Below, one piece after another: positions 57,185 to 58,327 of a stretch of 64,000 nucleotides of DNA. The notes under the pieces are model-generated. The model saw only the letters and a list, made by a program, of their open reading frames with translations. It was not told where the DNA came from and did no database searches. Position 1 is the first letter of the stretch. Every line of letters begins with the position of its first letter. Source of the DNA: Roseomonas mucosa (lineage in GTDB: Bacteria > Pseudomonadota > Alphaproteobacteria > Acetobacterales > Acetobacteraceae); NCBI GenBank assembly GCA_945878375.1, contig CAMDWG010000016.1:1-64000 (forward strand). The letters are read 5' to 3'. A program made the position numbers and the translations under genes.

Positions 57185-57267
57185 GCTTGGCCCCCCACGT
57201 CGCAGGAACCTGTTTCGGGCGGTGACCTCCCTGCCGAATGATGGCACAAGGCATTGAGGGAGATGAT

Positions 57268-58005
57268 ATGATCATGGTCGCCTTGCAGGCCCCTATCCAA
57301 CTGCCGCCGCTCAGCCTGCCCCATTTCCCTGGCACGCTGATGGGTGGTGGGACCTCCGCCGAGGCACAAGCCTTGCTCGGAGAAGTTGAATCGCTTTGCG
57401 CGACGCTCGTCCGGCGCCGCGCATCCTTGAGTTGCTCTGCCCGGAAGGCGATCGAGGATGCGCGGTCGCTTAAGAAGCTGGGCGTAAGCGCGGAACTGGG
57501 CCAGCCGATCGAGGAATTGTCAGCAGCATTGCCCGACGTTGCGGCAGCAATGGCGGCCTCGGCGCGGGCCGTCGCCGGCTTCCGTGCGGCGGCCCGCCAA
57601 CGGCCAGGAAACCAGACTGAGGCTACGCTCGAGACGGTGCTGCTGGTCGATGCCGAGCTTCGTGCTCTGCATGACGAGGCACGCGCAGTCCTGCGTGCCT
57701 TGGAGACGGAACAGGCGGTGGCGCCGCCGCCCGCCGAAGCCGCCCCGCTTAGCCAAGCCTTCGACGCCTACGTGCCGGCGCTGAAGGCAGCTTTCCCGGA
57801 AGGCACCATCGAGGCCTTCACGCCCGGGATCAGCCAGTTGGCAGGCGAACTCATCCCGATTCTGACGGTCCGCCTCCGCGAGCAATTACTTACCGATCGG
57901 TTGGTCGCACTGGAACAGGACGCGCATGCGCGAGTCGCGGCCGAGGATCCAAGTCTCGTCGGGCTTTTCGCGATCGACTATGTTCCGCCCGCAAGCGCGC
58001 CTTGA
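57268..58005 (+). CDS. Uncharacterised, predicted helix-rich protein, upstream partner of the HEPN gene
   Basis: In-frame ORF (57238..58005) with GAGGGA before ATG 57268; no known motif recognised; overlaps the next gene. Confidence 0.65.
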   Translation: MIMVALQAPIQLPPLSLPHFPGTLMGGGTSAEAQALLGEVESLCATLVRRRASLSCSARKAIEDARSLKKLGVSAELGQPIEELSAALPDVAAAMAASARAVAGFRAAARQRPGNQTEATLETVLLVDAELRALHDEARAVLRALETEQAVAPPPAEAAPLSQAFDAYVPALKAAFPEGTIEAFTPGISQLAGELIPILTVRLREQLLTDRLVALEQDAHARVAAEDPSLVGLFAIDYVPPASAP

Positions 58006-58321
58006 ACTGGCCCGCCGTCTTGCGGCCGACCGGGACGAGGCGGCCCATCGGGCGGCCGTCCACCAAGCCTACTACGCCGCGTATCACTGCTGCGCTGCTT
58101 GGCTCGGCCGGAACCCGTCGAACCGCGACGAGGCGGGCCACGGAAGACTTCGCGACGACCTCCTGAGTCACGCTGGCCGAGATCCTTGGCTTATCGCCGC
58201 GAAAGGCAATCTCGGCCGATTGCTCTATCTCCGGGCCTGGGCGGATTACGACGACGGGCGGCCCATGACAGCCGCGCACGCTCAGGAGGCGGTGCAGCGG
58301 GCAAGCCTGATCGTCGGATAA
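57980..58321 (+). CDS. HEPN-domain protein, UPF0332-like
   Basis: AAVHQAYYAAYHCCAAWLGR...GHGRLRDDLL...LLYLRAWADYDDGRPMTAAHAQEAVQRASLIV matches the YYA-[YF]H / LxxxRxxADY layout of UPF0332/HEPN proteins. Confidence 0.7.
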   Translation: MFRPQARLELARRLAADRDEAAHRAAVHQAYYAAYHCCAAWLGRNPSNRDEAGHGRLRDDLLSHAGRDPWLIAAKGNLGRLLYLRAWADYDDGRPMTAAHAQEAVQRASLIVG

Positions 58322-58327
58322 TCGACC

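Follow-up and report, generated by a model that had tools for sequence, protein, structure and literature searches.

Two overlapping genes in the 64,000-nucleotide stretch of Roseomonas mucosa DNA analysed here (contig CAMDWG010000016.1, positions 1 to 64,000; the window) encode a HEPN-T-type protein, B, and a larger partner, A, that lacks the motif of the MNT nucleotidyltransferases with which small HEPN proteins are commonly encoded. By its sequence, the pair is one small clade of a broad HEPN-T branch whose partners are not MNT proteins and whose unannotated members are found in phages, plasmids, and chromosomes; this range makes it probable that the pair serves as a toxin or in phage defence and belongs to a type of module that is still undescribed. 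We read A and B as a mobile HEPN effector with its regulatory partner, that is, as a conflict module, and place the probability of this overall reading at roughly 0.55.

A two-gene cassette at a variable site

The features to which the text refers are as follows.

57268..58005, + strand: gene A, 245 aa partner protein (P0001); another ATG lies upstream at 57238
57980..58321, + strand: gene B, 113 aa HEPN-T-type protein (P0002)
57980..58005, + strand: A/B overlap, 26 bp
57256..57262, + strand: GAGGGAG, likely ribosome-binding site of A to judge from the sequence, 5 nt ahead of the ATG at 57268
57355..57714, + strand: N-terminal helical part of A, residues 30-149 (single-sequence AlphaFold2, pLDDT ~75-85)
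57745..57984, + strand: C-terminal domain of A, residues ~160-239, the conserved part, ending DPSLVGLFAIDYV
58049..58051, + strand: R24 codon of B, in helix 2; present in all non-MNT HEPN-T proteins examined and not in MNT-paired ones
58139..58141, + strand: H54 codon of B; conserved His of the helix 2-3 insert, putative alternative active-site His
58232..58249, + strand: R85-A-W-A-D89-Y90 of B, at the position of the canonical Rx4-6H

Both open reading frames, with their coordinates and the 26 bp overlap, read from the sequence just as an earlier note on this DNA had them, and the overlap suggests translational coupling. An upstream ATG at 57926 is unlikely to be the start of B, as its nearest homologues do without the extra residues that it would add. 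Neither A nor B has a match at E<=1 in Pfam, PADLOC, or NCBIfam, no PADLOC model of a known anti-phage system matched, and no enzymatic motif or family match is recognisable in A. Direct inspection of P0001 bears out the earlier claim that A lacks the MNT motif (GS-x10-DxD), in line with its lack of a Pfam match. The description of A as all-helical, in contrast, holds for residues 30-149 (single-sequence AlphaFold2, pLDDT ~80) but is uncertain for the C-terminal 85 residues (pLDDT ~55-65), where the low-confidence model has helices while the sequence pattern, by eye, is alpha-beta-beta-alpha-beta. Overall, the single-sequence models of A and B were poor, and Foldseek searches of the PDB with them gave nothing; the model of B is helical (pLDDT 60) and has no fold match.

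As had been noted, the pair is flanked by glnE-bcp and MOSC-tyrS; these flanks are syntenic in same-genus genomes. In one such genome (G005, locus L028) no more than about 20 bp separates the end of bcp from that of MOSC, and in a second (G010) the gap is short; two more (G009 and G011) have other sequences in the interval, with a BLUF-like ORF read from the sequence of G011. The site comparison draws on these four genomes, MOSC lying outside the fetched flank in the remaining same-genus genomes. The bcp-MOSC interval (window 57185-58327; L027, L028, L030, L033) is a variable site in the genus. GC3 is 0.72 in A and 0.75 in B versus 0.875-0.906 in the neighbour genes. With a variable site and foreign GC3, the cassette looks acquired, and the nearly empty site in G005 agrees with the earlier suggestion of an inserted accessory cassette. 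The ORFs adjoining the window pair include no evident integrase or phage gene.

A and B are kept together

Among 59 relatives, same-genus genomes included, we found no convincing A or B homologue outside the genome of the window itself; B is thus not a conserved stand-alone gene of this lineage, the other same-genus genomes searched having yielded no convincing copy of it. A search of 398 genomes of the same family with B as query returned four relatives. Two of them (L007 and L008) have a gene for ~250 aa directly upstream of the B homologue, and the upstream gene of L008 is homologous to A over the C-terminal 80 residues (E=3.6e-10, two-sequence BLAST); the other two (L009 and L010) are ordinary MNT-HEPN pairs. 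A profile built from the C-terminus of A alone led to L018, where the next gene is a B homologue, so that the pair is recovered from both sides. The A homologues are P0006 in L007, P0004 in L008, and P0008 in L018; their N-terminal sequence is poorly conserved, and the C-terminal domain is the conserved part. Altogether the pair occurs in 4 of the 398 family genomes, the window's own counted, and was recovered in three further genera. A is kept upstream of B in all four cases, and since their relatives were recovered as pairs, the pairing is more than chance. The layout is that of a toxin-antitoxin system, with two small coupled genes, conserved pairing, and sporadic distribution.

A further 385 genomes drawn from the class yielded no other convincing pair and one borderline match (E 0.009), and A or B as single-sequence queries returned nothing from plasmids, phages, viral contigs, or genome contigs. 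We set aside a match in G014 (L006; E 0.003, 31%), whose locus has no matching gene pair and which disappeared at a stricter threshold, as well as weak matches of A at L003-L005 (E ~1e-3), L019-L022, and L025, none of them a convincing homologue.

A putative alternative active site in B

The assignment of window B to HEPN-T is transitive: P0002 itself has no match to PF05168 at E<=1, whereas its relatives do match (P0005 at 24.4 bits, with a cut-off of 22, and P0007 at 18 bits), three of the four B members reaching E<=0.1. All four B proteins match phrog_5176, a phage family of unknown function that carries no partner annotation (window B at 1.3e-8), and a weak match links the B profile to a HEPN protein of solved structure (PDB 9xbd, E=0.0049).

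The layout AYYAAYH / GHGRL / LRAWADYDDG, on which B had been recognised as a HEPN protein, is present, and so are two R-x4-H strings that were likened to the HEPN RNase signature, RDEAAH at residues 18-23 and RDEAGH at residues 49-54. As a signature, however, the strings fail: R18, H23, and R49 vary among the four closest homologues, and only H54 is kept. We therefore reject them as the catalytic motif. The real HEPN motif position is the end of helix 3, where B has R85-x3-D89-Y90, without a His. In HEPN-T proteins the motif H is often replaced by D, and a different conserved H, in the insert between helices 2 and 3, could form an active site with the basic residue of the motif (PMC3710099). 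The four B proteins display this arrangement, with a basic residue and D for H at the end of helix 3 (R85, D89, Y90) and a conserved His elsewhere (H54); H54 together with R85-x3-D89-Y90 thus fits the alternative site described for AF0298-like HEPN-T proteins. Residues invariant in the four B proteins include R24, H28, Y31, Y32, H36, H54, R85, A88, D89, and Y90. The retention of H54, R85, D89, and Y90 across the B, T, and M groups also fits a conserved alternative active site.

A broad HEPN-T branch with other partners

A profile of the four B proteins found many other HEPN-T proteins, whose 5' neighbours fall into three additional classes: MNT (6 cases used), a protein of ~90-110 aa without the MNT motif (S type; 19 used in the tree), and a protein of ~225-270 aa, up to ~280, with a TPR-like N-terminal part (T type; 13 genomic cases and 12 from phages or plasmids). 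These counts come from sampled genomes and mechanical ORF calls and give proportions only roughly. One of the four T partners scanned matches TPR_2 (4e-10). S-type loci are L048, L052, L054, L056-L059, L061-L073, L079, and L083, where the HEPN-T protein has ~150-185 aa; among the members scanned, the small partner has no name from Pfam (above cut-off), NCBIfam, PADLOC, or PHROG. T-type loci are L074-L078, L080-L082, L085-L089, and L090-L104, from Proteobacteria and IMG/VR viral contigs, with the TPR-like gene followed by the HEPN-T gene.

In a tree of 42 HEPN proteins, the MNT-paired (92/94), S-type (100/100), and window-type B (89/86) proteins each form one clade, and the T-type proteins are scattered on the non-MNT side. 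R24 follows the same division, being present in all 36 non-MNT proteins of the tree set and in none of the 6 MNT-paired ones; all 12 additional copies from phages and plasmids have it as well, which brings the non-MNT count to 48/48. His at the H28 position (codon 58061-58063) is found in the four window-type HEPN proteins and in three MNT-paired ones, with Ser or Asn in the S and T types. The position of the insert His in the S type depends on the alignment: it does not line up in the 42-sequence alignment but is present in 16 of 17 S proteins in a 26-sequence alignment.

The partners may share a C-terminal domain. We compared profiles with hhalign, using 100 column shuffles as the control. 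S against T scored 22.4 with the larger T set (maximum shuffle 12.1) and 19.8 in another run (12.8). The C-terminus of A scored 20.2 against S and T together (maximum shuffle 15.3) and 16.1 against S (13.9 and 15.3 in two control runs). Against T, it fell below the shuffle maximum when T was cut at 105 aa (14.0 versus 14.8), exceeded it with an 88 aa cut (18.9 versus 17.2), and barely exceeded it with the larger T set (15.3 versus 14.3). By eye, the C-terminal end reads as alpha-beta-beta-alpha-beta in A, S, and T alike. The shuffle controls thus lend support to a C-terminal domain common to the S and T partners and are suggestive of homology between this domain and that of A.

A non-MNT HEPN-T pair of this kind was not found in the literature searched, most subscription papers being outside its reach. 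Our broadest proposal, which we hold tentatively and at somewhat less than even odds, is that HEPN-T contains a major undescribed non-MNT branch with modular partners, in which a C-terminal docking domain would be combined with an N-terminal sensor that varies or is absent (none, helical bundle, or TPR-like).

Relatives on phages and plasmids

Several related pairs lie in mobile surroundings. The pair in G392 adjoins a tyrosine integrase on a phage-like contig, that in G144 is near phage tail-fibre and other phage genes, and that in G162 has genes for a phage-type helicase and primase a few kb away. IMG/VR viral contigs gave 15 HEPN matches, 10 of which were parsed with a T-type partner. A T-type pair is carried by a conjugative Photobacterium damselae plasmid beside a resolvase gene (L106:4237-5348), and another by the P2-like Vibrio phage 10N.286.54.E4_PE001 between portal/ogr-like genes and replication gene A:

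L105:5208-6402 (PQ189350.1 23691-24885): Vibrio phage T-type pair in the gpA-gpQ cargo locus, both genes annotated hypothetical

The gpA-gpQ interval of P2-like phages has been described as a hotspot for anti-phage systems, old and tin among them (PMC9122126). The presence of relatives at phage and plasmid cargo positions makes a toxin-antitoxin or defence function more likely, and the window pair may have such a role.

A model for the pair and its alternatives

We posit that A, made first and translationally coupled to B, is the cognate regulator of B, which is predicted to be a HEPN-T effector and most likely an endoribonuclease, with a putative active site formed by H54 and R85 together with D89, Y90, and perhaps R24. 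The conserved C-terminal domain of A (alpha-beta-beta-alpha-beta) would dock onto B and keep it inactive, and the variable helical N-terminal part would sense or transmit a trigger. Once released, B would cleave RNA and growth would stop, an arrest that could serve phage exclusion or abortive infection or could stabilise the carrying element. The gene order, with the partner first, is that of MNT-HEPN pairs, whose first product has been argued to be the antitoxin (PMC3710099). Since A lacks the nucleotidyltransferase residues, AMPylation of B is unlikely as the means of inhibition, and we infer direct binding by the C-terminal domain instead.

The best-surviving alternative, although an unlikely one, is a pure addiction module with no part in defence, in which A would be a simple antitoxin and B, as an RNase toxin, would penalise loss of the carrying element. 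Two small coupled genes with the 5' partner first, a sporadic mobile distribution, and a sister pair beside a resolvase on a conjugative plasmid are what such a module would show, but A, with 245 aa and a variable N-terminal part, goes beyond the needs of a minimal antitoxin, and a sister pair sits in the P2 defence hotspot. We give lower odds to the idea that B binds RNA as a HEPN protein without catalytic activity and forms, with A, a mobile translational or post-transcriptional regulator. The canonical Rx4-6H His is indeed absent from B, and non-catalytic toxic or regulatory HEPN proteins have been allowed for (PMC3710099); the putative alternative site, however, is retained in groups B, T, and M. 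A reversal of roles, with A active or toxic and B its regulator or substrate-binding subunit, has a precedent in HEPN domains that are substrate-binding subunits of some nucleotidyltransferases (PMC3710099) but is improbable for a protein with no recognisable enzymatic motif or family match, whose N-terminal sequence is poorly conserved whereas B retains its polar residues. That the pair is a decaying, functionless remnant is the least credible reading: it was not found in the other same-genus genomes searched, and B is divergent, on a long branch, yet both frames are intact and overlapping and the motif residues are retained.

Several systems stand close to the pair. Like HEPN-T proteins (PF05168; AF0298-like, UPF0332), B has R-x3-D-Y at the end of helix 3, a His in the helix 2-3 insert, a similar size, and an AYYAxYH helix 2; it differs by the added conserved R24 and H28, by a partner that is not MNT, and by a sequence (P0002) below Pfam detection. 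MntA-HepT (HEPN-MNT, a type VII toxin-antitoxin system) is likewise mobile and made of two genes, partner first and HEPN second. In A, however, GS-x10-DxD is missing, B has R85-AWA-D89-Y90 instead of RX4HXY, and MNT-paired HEPN-T proteins form a separate clade; as neither partner nor motif is that of HEPN-MNT, we do not file the pair there. AbiV is described as sharing with HEPN-T the location of the alternative His (PMC3710099), whereas A/B has two genes and no PADLOC match. The S and T pairs share with A/B the non-MNT side of the HEPN-T tree, R24, a 5' partner immediately upstream, and the proposed common C-terminal domain, but the S partner (~100 aa) lacks the N-terminal part, in the T partner (~250 aa) this part is TPR-like, and H28 is Ser or Asn in these pairs.

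Outlook

Small HEPN genes are usually read as HEPN-MNT, which has been described as the predicted most abundant prokaryotic toxin-antitoxin system (PMC7641770). Most of the HEPN-T relatives sampled in Proteobacteria have another kind of partner that bears no family name, are often borne by phages or plasmids, and in one case lie at a defence hotspot. If the partner restrains an RNase without nucleotidylation, this would be a new way of controlling a HEPN toxin, testable with short cassettes. Should our broader proposal hold, the non-MNT HEPN-T branch would constitute a new class of sensor-effector systems, borne by phages and plasmids, that act in defence or as toxin-antitoxin modules.
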